A stretch of 64,000 bases of DNA from Clostridia bacterium (GTDB lineage: Bacteria > Bacillota > Clostridia > Christensenellales > Aristaeellaceae). This document shows positions 17,140-21,211 of this stretch, one piece after another. Numbering within the stretch: position 1 is the stretch's first letter; each line of letters opens with the position of its first letter. The notes beneath the pieces are model-generated. The model saw only the letters and a list, made by a program, of their open reading frames with translations, ran no database searches and was not told where the DNA came from. Made by a program: the position numbers and the translations under genes. The stretch covers positions 1-64,000 of the forward strand of contig JAFUGS010000093.1 in the NCBI GenBank assembly GCA_017469265.1, given 5' to 3'.

Positions 17140-17829
17140 TCACTTTCCGCTGACGGCGTCAAACAGCCCTCCCAGGGAGAAACGGTCCACCGGCAGGTCA
17201 TTGACCGCCTCCAGAATATCCCCCAGATGATGGGCGTCCGACGACCAGAGCCTGCGCTTTCCGACGATCAGCTTCTCGTTCACCGGCAGCTCCGGGCGCA
17301 CCTCCACCACTGGGAAATCCACATCCTCCGGGAAAAGCCCCAGGTTCACCAGCAGCCCGTGTCCCCGGTTGATATGGGCCGGCACCGCGGCGCCGCCGTG
17401 CTCCCGGATGATCCGCGCGCACTCCTGCAGGCTCAGATCCGTCGCCCCGATCAGCAGCCGGTCCTCGATGGCCTGCACCTCGTCGTCCGTATTCATTACC
17501 AGCTGATTGCCGAAAAAGTCCGGCTTGTTCTTCATGGGGGGCAGATGGCTGGAGAAGATTTCCCCCACCTCCACCGCCGTTTCCACCTCCCTGAAGTACC
17601 CCAGCAGGTGCACCTCTTCCTTCGTGGTGATCTCCATCCCCGGCAGCAGGATCAGCCCGTAATAGTCCGCAGCTTCCTTTACGTAGGGCAGGTTCCGCGC
17701 CGTGTTGTGATCCGTCACGGCGATGGCTTCCAGGCCCTTGATATGCGCCATGCCGCAGATATTGGCCGGCGTCATGTCATCGTCCGCGCAGGGGGACAGG
17801 CAGCTGTGCATGTGCAGATCCACCAGCAT
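17140..17829 (-). CDS. PHP-domain phosphoesterase
   Basis: A 229-residue cytoplasmic metal-dependent phosphoesterase of the PHP superfamily; the substrate is unknown. The start is the ATG at 17829 after GGGAGGG. Motifs: D-L-H-M-H-S at 4-9, a conserved D-H-N (in V-T-D-H-N-T-A), G-M-E-I-T-T (E metal ligand), P-A-H-I-N-R, and S-S-D-A-H-H-L-G near the end. These supply the expected His/Asp/Glu metal ligands. It follows the DRTGG-like gene by 4 bases. PHP proteins are reported beside group D [FeFe]-hydrogenase genes, so a role in that signalling module is plausible (inference). Confidence 0.85.
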   Translation of the reverse strand: MLVDLHMHSCLSPCADDDMTPANICGMAHIKGLEAIAVTDHNTARNLPYVKEAADYYGLILLPGMEITTKEEVHLLGYFREVETAVEVGEIFSSHLPPMKNKPDFFGNQLVMNTDDEVQAIEDRLLIGATDLSLQECARIIREHGGAAVPAHINRGHGLLVNLGLFPEDVDFPVVEVRPELPVNEKLIVGKRRLWSSDAHHLGDILEAVNDLPVDRFSLGGLFDAVSGK

Positions 17830-17833
17830 GGAA

Positions 17834-18187
17834 TCAGCCCTCCCGGGGCGTCCCCGGCAGCCCGGCCTCCGCCATGAGCGCGCACAGCTCATAGGCGGTC
17901 TTCCCGCTCTGCAGGACGCAGATGCCTTCCTCCCGCGCCTTCTCCAGGGTGGCCTCCTCCATCTCGATGTCCTCCGGGATAATGACCGCCGCCATCTCCA
18001 TCAGGCTGGCCACCGCGATGACGTTCATATGGGTCTGCACGGTGATCCAGGCCATGCCCGCCTTGCCGTGGGCCATGACCCAGCTCAGCAGGTCGCAGGT
18101 GTATCCGCAGGTGACCTCCGTCTCCCGGCTCGCTTCCGGCGTCATGTCCTTCGCGCCGGTCAGTTCAATCAGTTCCCGAATGTTCAT
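17834..18187 (-). CDS. DRTGG-type small protein (copy 2)
   Basis: A 117-residue soluble protein related to the DRTGG domain, which occurs in phosphotransacetylase and serine-kinase-like regulators and may bind nucleotides. Visible features: M-N-I-R-E-L-I-E-L-T-G at the start, a core C-G-Y-T-C-D-L-L-S-W-V-M, a hydrophobic strand V-I-I-P-E-D, and E-E-G-I-C-V-L-Q-S near the end. It aligns by eye with the protein at 19997-20365 along its length, ending in G-L-P-G, so the two are paralogues. It sits between HydS (47-base gap) and PHP (4-base gap). Confidence 0.75.
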   Translation of the reverse strand: MNIRELIELTGAKDMTPEASRETEVTCGYTCDLLSWVMAHGKAGMAWITVQTHMNVIAVASLMEMAAVIIPEDIEMEEATLEKAREEGICVLQSGKTAYELCALMAEAGLPGTPREG

Positions 18188-18234
18188 GGCTTATCGCTCC
18201 TTTTCGTTTTTTCCCGCGCCGCCCGCGGCGCTTT

Positions 18235-19545
18235 TTACTCCCGCGTGGTCTTGGCCAGGTCCACCATCTGCTGGGCCATGACCTTCAGGTGATCCTTCAT
18301 CCGGTGAATGCAGTCCATTTCCCGGGCCTTTCCCTGGACGATGTCCTCCGCGAAGGTCCTGCAGGTGGGGCTGCCGCAGCTGCCGCAGTCGTACCCCGGC
18401 AGCGTCGCGTAGATTTCCTCAATCCGCTCCATCTTCCGCATGGCTTCCACCAGGTCGTCGTCCAGCTTCATGGCGGAGTTGGGCTGGATCCGCCGGCTGT
18501 CGTACAGGCTGTACTTGGTCATCATCCCGTTGTCCACGTTCAGGTCCGCGTCCCGGATGTCCACCAGGCGGCGGATCCAGTTCCGGGCCACGTAGGTGTT
18601 CTCAAAGTTCAGCGGCCCGCCCACGCATCCGCCGTTGCAGGCCGCGCCTTCAAAGAACTCCAGCCCGTTCAGCCGGTTGTCCTCAATCTCCTCCAGCACC
18701 TTGATGCAGTTGGCGATGCCGTCCACCGCCATGCTCTCCGTGGGGCACACCGCGTCGCATTCGCCGCCGCTGCGGGCCCAGCCCACGCCGAAGTCCGACG
18801 AGGTTTTCAGCGCCTCATCCGTCGGCGCCTTCCGGATCAGGGCGCTCAGCGGGCCGTAGATCTCCATGACGCTGATGGCGCCGTCCACCGCGCTCTTCTC
18901 ATGCCCGATGGGATTCCGGATGGCCGTCACCTTGGCCGGGCAGGGCGTCAGGAAAAAGCAGCCGATGTCCCGCTCATCCACCTGGTGCTTCCGGGCGAAT
19001 TCCTTCTTGGCGATCATGGCCGCCACCTCCATGGGCTGACGGATGTCCACGATGTGGTCGATCAGGTCCGGAAAGCGGACCTGGATCAGCCGCACAATGG
19101 CCGGACAGGCGGAGGAAATGACCGGCCGGGGCAGATCCGGCTTCTTCAGCCGTTCCCGGATGGCCCGGCTTACCACGTCCGCCCCCCGCGCCACCTCAAA
19201 CACGTCGTCAAAGCCCAGCTCCTTCAGCGCGGAAAGCAGCTGGCTGATGTTCTCCAGATTCTTGAACTGCCCGTACAGGCTCGGGGCGGGCAGCGCGATC
19301 TTATACTTCCAGCCCTCAATGACGCTCAGCGGATCGGTCACCGCCACCTTCGCGTGATAATCGCAGACCCGGATGCATTCCCCGCAGTCGATGCAGCGCT
19401 CGTCGATGATGTGGGCGCTGCCGCCCCGGACCCGGATGGCTTCCGTCGGGCACCGTTTCAGGCAGTTGGTGCAGGCGCGGCATTTATCCTTTTCCAGCCG
19501 CACCGAGTGAAATCGTTTCGTCTCTTCCATCTTCCGTTCCCCCAA
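18235..19545 (-). CDS. Group D-like (HydS-type) [FeFe]-hydrogenase, putatively sensory
   Basis: Iron-sulfur protein carrying a complete H-cluster site in the form found in sensory-type hydrogenases. Numbering is from the TTG at 19545; an ATG at 19530 is also plausible. Residues 20-65 hold two ferredoxin-type clusters (C-R-A-C-T-N-C and C-I-D-C-G-E-C). The H-cluster motifs are L1 S-S-A-C-P (143-147), L2 T-P-C-P-A-K (C201) and L3 E-G-A-A-C-N-G-G-C (C302, C306). All four cluster-ligand Cys are present, but the Cys used for proton transfer in catalytic enzymes is Ala145, as reported for group D enzymes. The C terminus has an extra C-x2-C-x4-C-x16-C cluster motif (C386, C389, C394, C411). Its neighbours are an ATPase, DRTGG and PHP genes. 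The HydEFG maturation genes are not in the window. Confidence 0.88.
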   Translation of the reverse strand: MGERKMEETKRFHSVRLEKDKCRACTNCLKRCPTEAIRVRGGSAHIIDERCIDCGECIRVCDYHAKVAVTDPLSVIEGWKYKIALPAPSLYGQFKNLENISQLLSALKELGFDDVFEVARGADVVSRAIRERLKKPDLPRPVISSACPAIVRLIQVRFPDLIDHIVDIRQPMEVAAMIAKKEFARKHQVDERDIGCFFLTPCPAKVTAIRNPIGHEKSAVDGAISVMEIYGPLSALIRKAPTDEALKTSSDFGVGWARSGGECDAVCPTESMAVDGIANCIKVLEEIEDNRLNGLEFFEGAACNGGCVGGPLNFENTYVARNWIRRLVDIRDADLNVDNGMMTKYSLYDSRRIQPNSAMKLDDDLVEAMRKMERIEEIYATLPGYDCGSCGSPTCRTFAEDIVQGKAREMDCIHRMKDHLKVMAQQMVDLAKTTRE

Positions 19546-19564
19546 AGGCTCGCGCCCCTTTCCC

Positions 19565-19993
19565 TCAGGCCTTCAGCGCGAAACTCATGGTGATGGTCGT
19601 TCCGACCCCCACCTCGCTCTGGATATCAAAGTCCGTGGCGTTCCTTTTCATGTTCGGCAGGCCCATGCCGGCGCCGAAGCCAAGGGTTCTGGCTTCCTCG
19701 TTGGCGGTGGAATACCCTTCGGTCATGGCCTTCTCAATGTCCGGAATCCCCGGCCCCACATCCTGCGAGATCAGCGTCACCTTGTCCGGCTCCACCTGCA
19801 GGGTCAGCGTTCCGCCCAGGGAGTGGATCACCAGGTTCAGCTCCACCTCGTAGCAGGCCACGCTCACGTGCCGCAGCACTTCCGCGCTGACGCCCAGCTG
19901 CTTCAGGGTCCGCTTGATGGTGGTGGACGCCTCGCCTGCCGTTTCGTACGCCCCGGCTTCCACGGGGAATTTCTTTTCCATCAGCACTGCCAT
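19565..19993 (-). CDS. RsbW/RsbT-like GHKL ATP-binding protein
   Basis: A 142-residue single-domain histidine-kinase-like ATPase of the anti-sigma-factor/serine-kinase type. The N box is C-Y-E-V-E-L-N-L-V-I-H, the G1 box D-V-G-P-G-I-P-D, and the G2-like box T-L-G-F-G-A-G-M-G-L. Such proteins phosphorylate a Ser on an anti-anti-sigma partner or bind a sigma factor; no STAS partner or alternative sigma gene lies nearby. It is between the DRTGG-like gene (3-base gap) and HydS (19 bases), an arrangement known near group D hydrogenases. Confidence 0.85.
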   Translation of the reverse strand: MAVLMEKKFPVEAGAYETAGEASTTIKRTLKQLGVSAEVLRHVSVACYEVELNLVIHSLGGTLTLQVEPDKVTLISQDVGPGIPDIEKAMTEGYSTANEEARTLGFGAGMGLPNMKRNATDFDIQSEVGVGTTITMSFALKA

Positions 19994-19996
19994 GGC

Positions 19997-20365
19997 TTAC
20001 GCTCCTTCCGCGCCGGCGCGCTTTTTCGTCCCAGGCAGACCGTGCACATACAGCTCGCCGCAGGCGGTGTAGGTGGTCATCTTCGTGCTCAGCACGGTGA
20101 TGCCGCATTCCTCCGCCTCCTCCAGGATTTCCTCGCTGGGCAGCTTTCCCCGGGAAAACACGATGCAGGTAATGTCCAGCATCTCGCTGGTCCGCACCAC
20201 GTGCGGATTAATCAGCCCCGTGATCAGGACCGTCTTGTCCTTGACAAAGGCCAGCACGTCGCTCATCAGGTCGGATCCGCAGGCCGTATCCACCGGCTCC
20301 TCCATCCGCTCCCCCCCGATCAGCACATCCGCTTCCAGAATTCTCTTGACATCGGCGATGGTCAT
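19997..20365 (-). CDS. DRTGG-type small protein (copy 1)
   Basis: A 122-residue soluble protein related to the DRTGG family. The start is the ATG at 20365 after GGAGAG; an upstream in-frame ATG at 20398 has no ribosome site. It begins M-T-I-A-D-V-K-R-I-L-E, contains A-C-G-S-D-L-M-S-D-V-L-A and V-L-I-T-G-L, and ends L-P-G-T-K-K. It shares its layout with the 117-residue protein at 17834. It follows the DUF6062 gene by about 70 bases and is first of the hydrogenase-linked module. Confidence 0.75.
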   Translation of the reverse strand: MTIADVKRILEADVLIGGERMEEPVDTACGSDLMSDVLAFVKDKTVLITGLINPHVVRTSEMLDITCIVFSRGKLPSEEILEEAEECGITVLSTKMTTYTACGELYVHGLPGTKKRAGAEGA

Positions 20366-20437: not shown

Positions 20438-21211
20438 TTATTCGTTGGGTTCCCTGCCCACGCACCAGCCCCGGGTCTTGTTCACCGTCCGCTCCACCGC
20501 GTCCCGGCTGTTTTTCCAGTCTTCCTTTTCAAACCGGTAATCGAATTTCTTGATGAACCAGGAAATATCCTCCTGAATCCGGTCCAGGTTTTCCTTCTCC
20601 ATGGCTGCCAGCGCCTGCACGAATTCGCCCAGCTCCTTCCCGCTCAGCTCCTCCGCCGCCACGGCCAGCAGCTGCCCCGTATGGGGCATGCACAGCCCCT
20701 TTCCCGCCAGAAAACGCTTCCGGAATTCCCCGTCGCTCCTGTACAGGTGGAAAAAGGTGTGCAGATACCGCAGCATGTTCTCCGCGATGGTGTCGCACAT
20801 GACGCAGGTCCCGGCCATGGCCTGGATCTTCTCCGCCTCCTGGCGGACGGTCTCCTTCGCGGCCTTGCTTTTCCCGTTCAGCTTATCGCTCAGGCCGGCG
20901 TTTTTCAGCTGTTCCCCGGCTCTGTTCAGCGCCTGCCAGCTTTTTTCCAGCCGCTCCCGGTTTTCAATCATGTGGCTGTCCAGCATCAGGGCGTGACCCA
21001 GCCGGTTGCTCATGCCGAAGAGCATGCCGTGATGCTTCCGGCAGAACCCCTTTTCATTGACCCGGATCCGCACATCCGGCTCCATCACGGAGGCGCCGAG
21101 ATACCTTTCCGCCTCCCCCAGCTCCGTCCGCCGCTCCAGGGCGCAGAGCAGGCATTCTCCGTCCTTCTTCGCCGCGTCCCAGATGGGGATCGTGTCAATA
21201 TGATACCTCAT
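20438..21211 (-). CDS. DUF6062-like cysteine-motif protein
   Basis: A 257-residue soluble protein of unknown function, recognised as the DUF6062 type by its N terminus M-R-Y-H-I-D-T-I-P-I-W-D. Four paired motifs could bind metal: E-C-L-L-C-A-L, F-C-R-K-H-H, T-C-V-M-C-D and L-C-M-P-H-T. They are symmetrical (C-x2-C then C-x2-H, twice), suggesting an internal duplication. It overlaps the preceding deaminase gene by 4 bases, so the two are translationally coupled. Confidence 0.75.
   Translation of the reverse strand: MRYHIDTIPIWDAAKKDGECLLCALERRTELGEAERYLGASVMEPDVRIRVNEKGFCRKHHGMLFGMSNRLGHALMLDSHMIENRERLEKSWQALNRAGEQLKNAGLSDKLNGKSKAAKETVRQEAEKIQAMAGTCVMCDTIAENMLRYLHTFFHLYRSDGEFRKRFLAGKGLCMPHTGQLLAVAAEELSGKELGEFVQALAAMEKENLDRIQEDISWFIKKFDYRFEKEDWKNSRDAVERTVNKTRGWCVGREPNE

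Follow-up and report, generated by a model that had tools for sequence, protein, structure and literature searches.

A conserved group D HydS signalling operon of Clostridia in a host genome with no recognisable HydE, HydF or HydG

What does a sensory-type [FeFe]-hydrogenase report on, and to which partners, in a bacterium whose genome appears to lack the maturases of the H-cluster? The question is raised by a five-gene module on the minus strand (17140-20365) of a 64,000-nucleotide stretch of DNA, called the window below, which is positions 1 to 64,000 of contig JAFUGS010000093.1 in the Clostridia bacterium assembly GCA_017469265.1 (order Christensenellales, family Aristaeellaceae). The original prediction took this module for a complete signal path from hydrogen or redox state to protein phosphorylation or a nucleotide signal. 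The module is a real and conserved signalling operon, of a kind already known from HydS of Thermoanaerobacter; the complete signal path from hydrogen is not supported as written, since the assembly searched gave no HydE or HydG and no HydF over cut-off, and a genome without HydEFG maturases was one of the two findings that the original prediction had itself named as refuting. Hydrogen sensing in this host is unproven, and the greater surprise lies in the missing maturases.

The genes stand in the order DRTGG1, SpoIIAB-like ATPase, HydS, DRTGG2 and PHP, with intergenic gaps of 3, 34, 47 and 4 bases, and both the five genes and the tight packing described in the original prediction were thereby recovered. 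The features are as follows:

19997..20365, minus strand: DRTGG1, first gene of the module, 122 aa, with a DRTGG domain (Pfam DRTGG 36.7 bits, cut-off 25.2)
19565..19993, minus strand: SpoIIAB/RsbW-like GHKL ATPase, putative protein serine kinase, 142 aa (Pfam HATPase_c 37.1 bits, over cut-off)
18235..19530, minus strand: HydS, group D [FeFe]-hydrogenase, 431 aa from ATG (Pfam Fe_hyd_lg_C 125.5 bits, over cut-off)
19108..19110, minus strand: codon of Ala141, which replaces the group A proton-relay Cys (read from the sequence)
18307..18402, minus strand: C-terminal [4Fe-4S] motif of HydS, Cx2Cx4Cx16C (Pfam FeS 51.1 bits, over cut-off, and the Cys pattern)
17834..18187, minus strand: DRTGG2, paralogue of DRTGG1, 117 aa (its profile aligns to DRTGG1 with 99.4% probability in hhalign)
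17140..17829, minus strand: PHP-family phosphoesterase, 229 aa (Pfam PHP 29.6 bits, over cut-off)

HydS carries two N-terminal ferredoxin ([4Fe-4S]) motifs and, numbered from the ATG used here, the H-cluster cysteines C142, C197, C298 and C302. An in-frame TTG lies at 19545. Counted from the ATG, the residue at the relay position is Ala141, and with the TTG as start it becomes Ala146; the replacement of the relay Cys by Ala is as predicted, the number given for it in the original prediction being 145. T195 is the Ser/Thr expected at the M353 position in group D, the C-terminal motif is formed by C382, C385, C390 and C407, and no Pfam match to a PAS domain was found in HydS. These membership features agree with the earlier assignment to a group D-like enzyme with all H-cluster cysteines and an extra C-terminal cluster. 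For HydS of Thermoanaerobacter mathranii (TamHydS), the available part of the published account assigns the proton path to E252 and E289 by mutation and to S249 and D265 by modelling (PMC10407848); mapped by motif, the corresponding residues of the present HydS are E257, E294, S254 and D270.

How widely the module is kept was judged from a search for HydS at E <= 1e-60 in 291 genomes of the class and 248 of the order, which found it in 138 and 98, respectively. HydS and its flanks were read in 128 distinct genomes. The order supplied 94 of its 98, without G400, G412, G432 and G465, which gave fragments or contig ends; the 134 class genomes from outside the order supplied 34, made up of 26 from among the 30 best class matches and eight chosen for the absence of HydG, and for these 34 maturase status means HydG alone. 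All five genes occur together in 117 of the 128 genomes (74/79 maturase-negative, 43/49 maturase-positive). The full set is likewise present in 67 of 80 named loci: 63 show the canonical order, one has this order with an extra ATPase, and in three DRTGG1 and the ATPase are swapped. Six of the 13 named loci without the full set sit at contig edges. The arrangement is far beyond chance, and the conservation around HydS in relatives that the original prediction had set as a test is thus present. Among named records, the closest are Clostridia assemblies from rumen and omasum, whose HydS is 93% identical. Across the 128 HydS sequences the four H-cluster and eight F-cluster cysteines are invariant, and the relay position is occupied by Ala in 113 and by Cys in none.

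The module has a usual neighbour. In Thermoanaerobacter wiegelii and Acetivibrio mesophilus it is directly followed by HydC, a second ATPase, a short open reading frame (ORF), HydB and HydA (names assigned by eye), and in G377 and G456, two genomes of the same genus as the host, HydA lies about 5 kb downstream. Adjacency to HydABC, reported for HydS of Thermoanaerobacter mathranii, is a usual, not an obligatory, trait of group D HydS. A second small ATPase-like ORF between a HydC-like gene and the next short ORF was seen by eye downstream of the module at L287 9008-9553 and L291 9134-9700.

The partner proteins are of signalling type, as the original prediction had it, and keep their characteristic residues. 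In alignments of 194-212 sequences per family, not de-duplicated, the ATPase conserves E49, E51, N53, D78, G80, G82 and G105-N114, almost every one of the 212 sequences having the N-box Glu/Asn and the glycine boxes; DRTGG1 keeps D32, S35 and K74 at 99-100% (209 sequences), and the metal residues of PHP (D4, H6, H8, D40, H41, E66, H74, H152, D198 and H200) stand at 97-100% (194 sequences). The best NCBIfam model for the ATPase is spIIAB, at 52.4 bits under its cut-off of 135, and the best match in the Protein Data Bank (PDB) is SpoIIAB (1til, E 1.1e-5). DRTGG2 scores 16.5 with Pfam DRTGG, under the cut-off of 25.2, and 19 of 27 aligned DRTGG2 members match this model at E <= 0.01; D32, S35 and T49 are common to DRTGG1 and DRTGG2. 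Because the GHKL residues of the ATPase and the metal residues of PHP are kept and the two DRTGG proteins share these three positions, it can be proposed that kinase and phosphatase form a switch with the DRTGG pair as its substrate.

We give an even chance to the reading that the module is the clostridial signalling operon of group D in which HydS acts through the ATPase on a DRTGG/PHP switch that tunes HydABC. HydS would read the reduction state of the cell, either as H2 through the H-cluster where this is made, or as reduced ferredoxin through its [4Fe-4S] clusters, and would transmit it as a conformational change to the SpoIIAB-like ATPase. This enzyme would in turn phosphorylate DRTGG1, DRTGG2 or both, with Ser35, conserved in the two, as the most likely site; PHP might remove this phosphate or cut a nucleotide ligand of the DRTGG pair, and the switch would tune the bifurcating hydrogenase HydABC. 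Every step of the path, the phosphorylated residue and the target are what we infer from sequence. Several points weigh against this signal path. Ser35 as phosphate acceptor is a guess made from its conservation; one or more partners are not in the stretch read in 11 of the 128 genomes, three of these at a contig edge; HydABC of the host is not beside the module, HydA being on contig C18 and the module on C98; the module has no STAS or sigma partner, and neither a PP2C partner nor an output gene was shown, the genome-wide search for STAS not having been run; and no maturases were found in the host genome.

The host assembly consists of 103 contigs and is 91.75% complete. HydE and HydG gave no match in it at E <= 0.001, and nothing over cut-off was found for HydF, the matches covering only about 120 to 180 positions at the start of the model. 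Within the order, HydG is present in 36, HydF in 40 and HydE over cut-off in 38 of the 248 genomes (44 with weak matches). Among the 98 HydS genomes of the order, at least one maturase over cut-off was found in 25, all three in 19 and none in 73, of which three (G379, G384 and G500) have a weak HydE-like match under the cut-off. The median completeness of these 73 genomes is 95%, with 64 at 90% or more, and incompleteness would explain about five of them, assuming all three genes at one locus. The BATS domain, which is carried by HydG, was detected in all 14 positive controls, but in none of the 25 genomes without maturases that were examined, nor in G478, which has HydF alone. In the host family, with 16 HydS genomes, all three maturases are present in two (the same-genus G377 and G456) and HydF only in one, and all three are missing from G360, the other negative genome of the same genus, which is 97% complete. 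On a quick HydS tree of 94 order genomes maturase status changes at least 13 times, ten of them forced by starred branches, and one deep clade holds 33 maturase-negative genomes and one positive. In G456 hydG, hydE and hydF adjoin; they are followed by a 113-residue reading frame (L135 11555-11896), which we take to resemble a TM1266-type hydrogenase regulator.

The HydS proton path is kept in both maturase classes. E257 is found in 47/49 positive and 75/79 negative genomes, E294 in all 128 (79/79 negative), D270 in 48/49 and 76/79, and Ser/Thr at position 254 in 43/49 and 70/79; in the 70 maturase-negative order genomes alone the counts are 68 for E257 and 70 each for E294 and D270. These sites are not exceptional by themselves, because 56 of the 90 HydS columns conserved in positives (62%) stay conserved in negatives anyway. 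Lys200 is lost in 8/79 negative and 3/49 positive genomes. In the deep negative clade the surroundings of the di-iron site have changed, with Phe or Tyr for T202 in 22/33 and Asn for L296 in 27/33, Lys200 being kept in 28/33. The same clade has Glu in place of R147 in 21/33, occurring together with the changes at 202 and 296.

Over NCBIfam cut-offs, the host has one group A6 HydA (G000:C18:3494-5239, P0001) and two group B1 hydrogenases, and a PAS-type hydrogenase-like gene (PAS by eye) on contig C36 falls under the cut-off. The three [FeFe]-hydrogenase-like genes other than HydA, two B1 and one PAS-type (C36, L002 1006-2679, L003, L004), keep the H-cluster cysteines. Loss of HydA in maturase-negative genomes was rejected, since HydA-type genes occur in 220 of the 248 order genomes, at least 182 of these 220 without any over-cut-off maturase. 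A loss of the H-cluster in the host HydA, considered from its motif TSCSP, was likewise rejected; the Ser is normal for this type of HydA, because the same motif is found in Acetobacterium woodii HydA1 and in 22 of 22 maturase-positive genomes. This Ser, at the position of the CpI ligand Cys300, is present in 87 of 90 order sequences as well as in A. woodii HydA1. In these 90 sequences (30 returned loci and 60 hand-picked across families; 22 maturase-positive, 68 negative), P231, E279, E282, R286, C299, S319, S323, P324, P354, K358, F417 and M497 are identical in 68/68 negatives, where the proton path is intact throughout, and M353 is kept in 65/68. Twelve of 13 such sites, set against the 71 of 115 H-domain columns (62%) that serve as background, give P = 0.013, an enrichment that is suggestive and no proof.

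With no maturases found and yet intact H-cluster cysteines and proton paths, either H2 is sensed through a di-iron subsite of unknown origin or HydS works as an iron-sulfur redox sensor; the input in the host cannot be H2 unless the subsite is supplied by something other than recognisable HydE, HydF and HydG. It is possible, although short of an even chance, that HydS of maturase-negative genomes has [4Fe-4S] clusters only and reports the redox state of ferredoxin, not H2. Assembly of the cubane is independent of HydEFG, and the cubane and F-cluster cysteines are all invariant where maturases are missing; the drift of the deep clade at positions 202 and 296, with Lys200 kept in 28/33, and the loss of Lys200 in 8/79 negatives against 3/49 positives point the same way. 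However, this drift is mostly within one clade and may be phylogeny, the full HydA proton path is kept in the same genomes, and E257, whose counterpart TamHydS needs for H2 oxidation according to the available part of that report (PMC10407848), is kept in 75/79.

Retention of the HydS path (E294 in 79/79 and D270 in 76/79 negatives) and of C299, E279, E282, R286, S319, K358 and M497 of HydA in 68/68 would fit with working H-clusters in both proteins, whose di-iron would be made by unknown enzymes or taken from neighbours, HydS then being a true H2 sensor. This we consider somewhat unlikely, even with 73 of 98 HydS genomes lacking maturases where about five were expected from incompleteness, BATS absent from 25/25 negatives, and 10 to 13 changes of status at the least on a tree with a 33:1 clade. 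The enrichment of HydA sites is mild, and the neighbourhood of the module yielded no candidate for a replacement gene; the only recurrent extra genes there, in clusters judged by eye and not by family search, were flanks common to both maturase classes (HydC-like and ATPase-like) and small clade-specific groups. As a general statement, that an order of mostly uncultured gut Clostridia equips both HydS and HydABC with working H-clusters by an unknown route or by scavenging, with no recognisable HydE, HydF or HydG, is in our view likewise somewhat unlikely. Alternatively, the three genes may exist and be lost from the assemblies or too divergent to call, as the 103 contigs and 91.75% completeness of the host, the lone HydF of G478 and the sub-cut-off HydE-like matches of G379, G384 and G500 might suggest. 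We find this quite unlikely, given that G360 also lacks all three, that completeness reaches 90% or more in 64 of the 73 negative genomes, and that moderately divergent HydE copies are detectable, because HydE of about 280 bits was found in other genomes.

Around the module, Rfam and tRNA scans of the window gave no match. A DUF6062 protein is encoded just upstream, at 20438-21211, and other families of the order, several in number, also have a DUF6062 match near the module, in their case often on the strand opposite to it.

In novelty the locus falls behind what had been thought. The available parts of the TamHydS papers already describe a group D enzyme with Ala at the relay position, a C-terminal cluster and a neighbouring ATPase, and name as neighbours only this ATPase and an 'AraC' gene, not the DRTGG and PHP partners (PMC8163306, PMC10407848, PMC13104023). 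As far as its available part goes, the 2026 TamHydS paper reports that H2 alters the secondary structure and that the C-terminal cluster is not a redox relay, and calls group D signal transfer open, with interaction partners to be identified (PMC13104023); the four conserved partners are concrete candidates for it. No description of the DRTGG-ATPase-HydS-DRTGG-PHP set or of a maturase-less HydS was found in the searches made of the open-licence PMC literature, and the main text of a 2025 paper on gut hydrogenases does not contain the words maturase, maturation, HydE or HydG (PMC12578642). Intact HydS and HydA in many genomes without recognisable maturases bear both on HydEFG as the sole route to the H-cluster and on H2 production by these rumen and gut bacteria.

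The module can in several respects be compared to known systems. Hydrogenase genes without a full HydE/F/G set have been noted, in the part of the source available, for some eukaryotes (Entamoeba, Mastigamoeba) and for Rhodospirillum rubrum (PMC4967309), whereas here the state is seen within a single bacterial order, in 73 of its 98 genomes with HydS, and the active-site residues of HydS and HydA are kept. Like the anti-sigma serine kinases SpoIIAB and RsbW, the ATPase is of GHKL type with the N-box Glu and Asn, but it scores 52.4 against the spIIAB cut-off of 135, and the module encodes neither a STAS nor a sigma partner for it. The DRTGG proteins resemble the DRTGG domains of CBS-pyrophosphatase and HPr kinase (Pfam DRTGG and Hpr_kinase_N matches; PDB 3l31/3l2b, E 2e-4), while they are stand-alone and paired, without a kinase or pyrophosphatase domain. 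The group C TmHydS of Thermotoga maritima has, in the available parts of its descriptions (PMC10407848, PMC13104023), the same sensory-type H-domain and C-terminal [4Fe-4S] cluster, with Ala likewise in place of the relay Cys, but group C has a fused PAS domain, which the host HydS lacks, the host having a separate PAS-type hydrogenase-like gene on C36. The closest likeness is to the TamHydS locus (group D, M2e). It differs in that the host has no recognisable HydEFG and carries HydABC elsewhere in its genome, and the words DRTGG and PHP occur 0 times in the available part of its description; it agrees, as far as that part and T. wiegelii as a near relative allow, in domain order, Ala at the relay position, Ser/Thr at the M353 position, Cx2Cx4Cx16C, absence of PAS, the group D proton path and the neighbouring ATPase.

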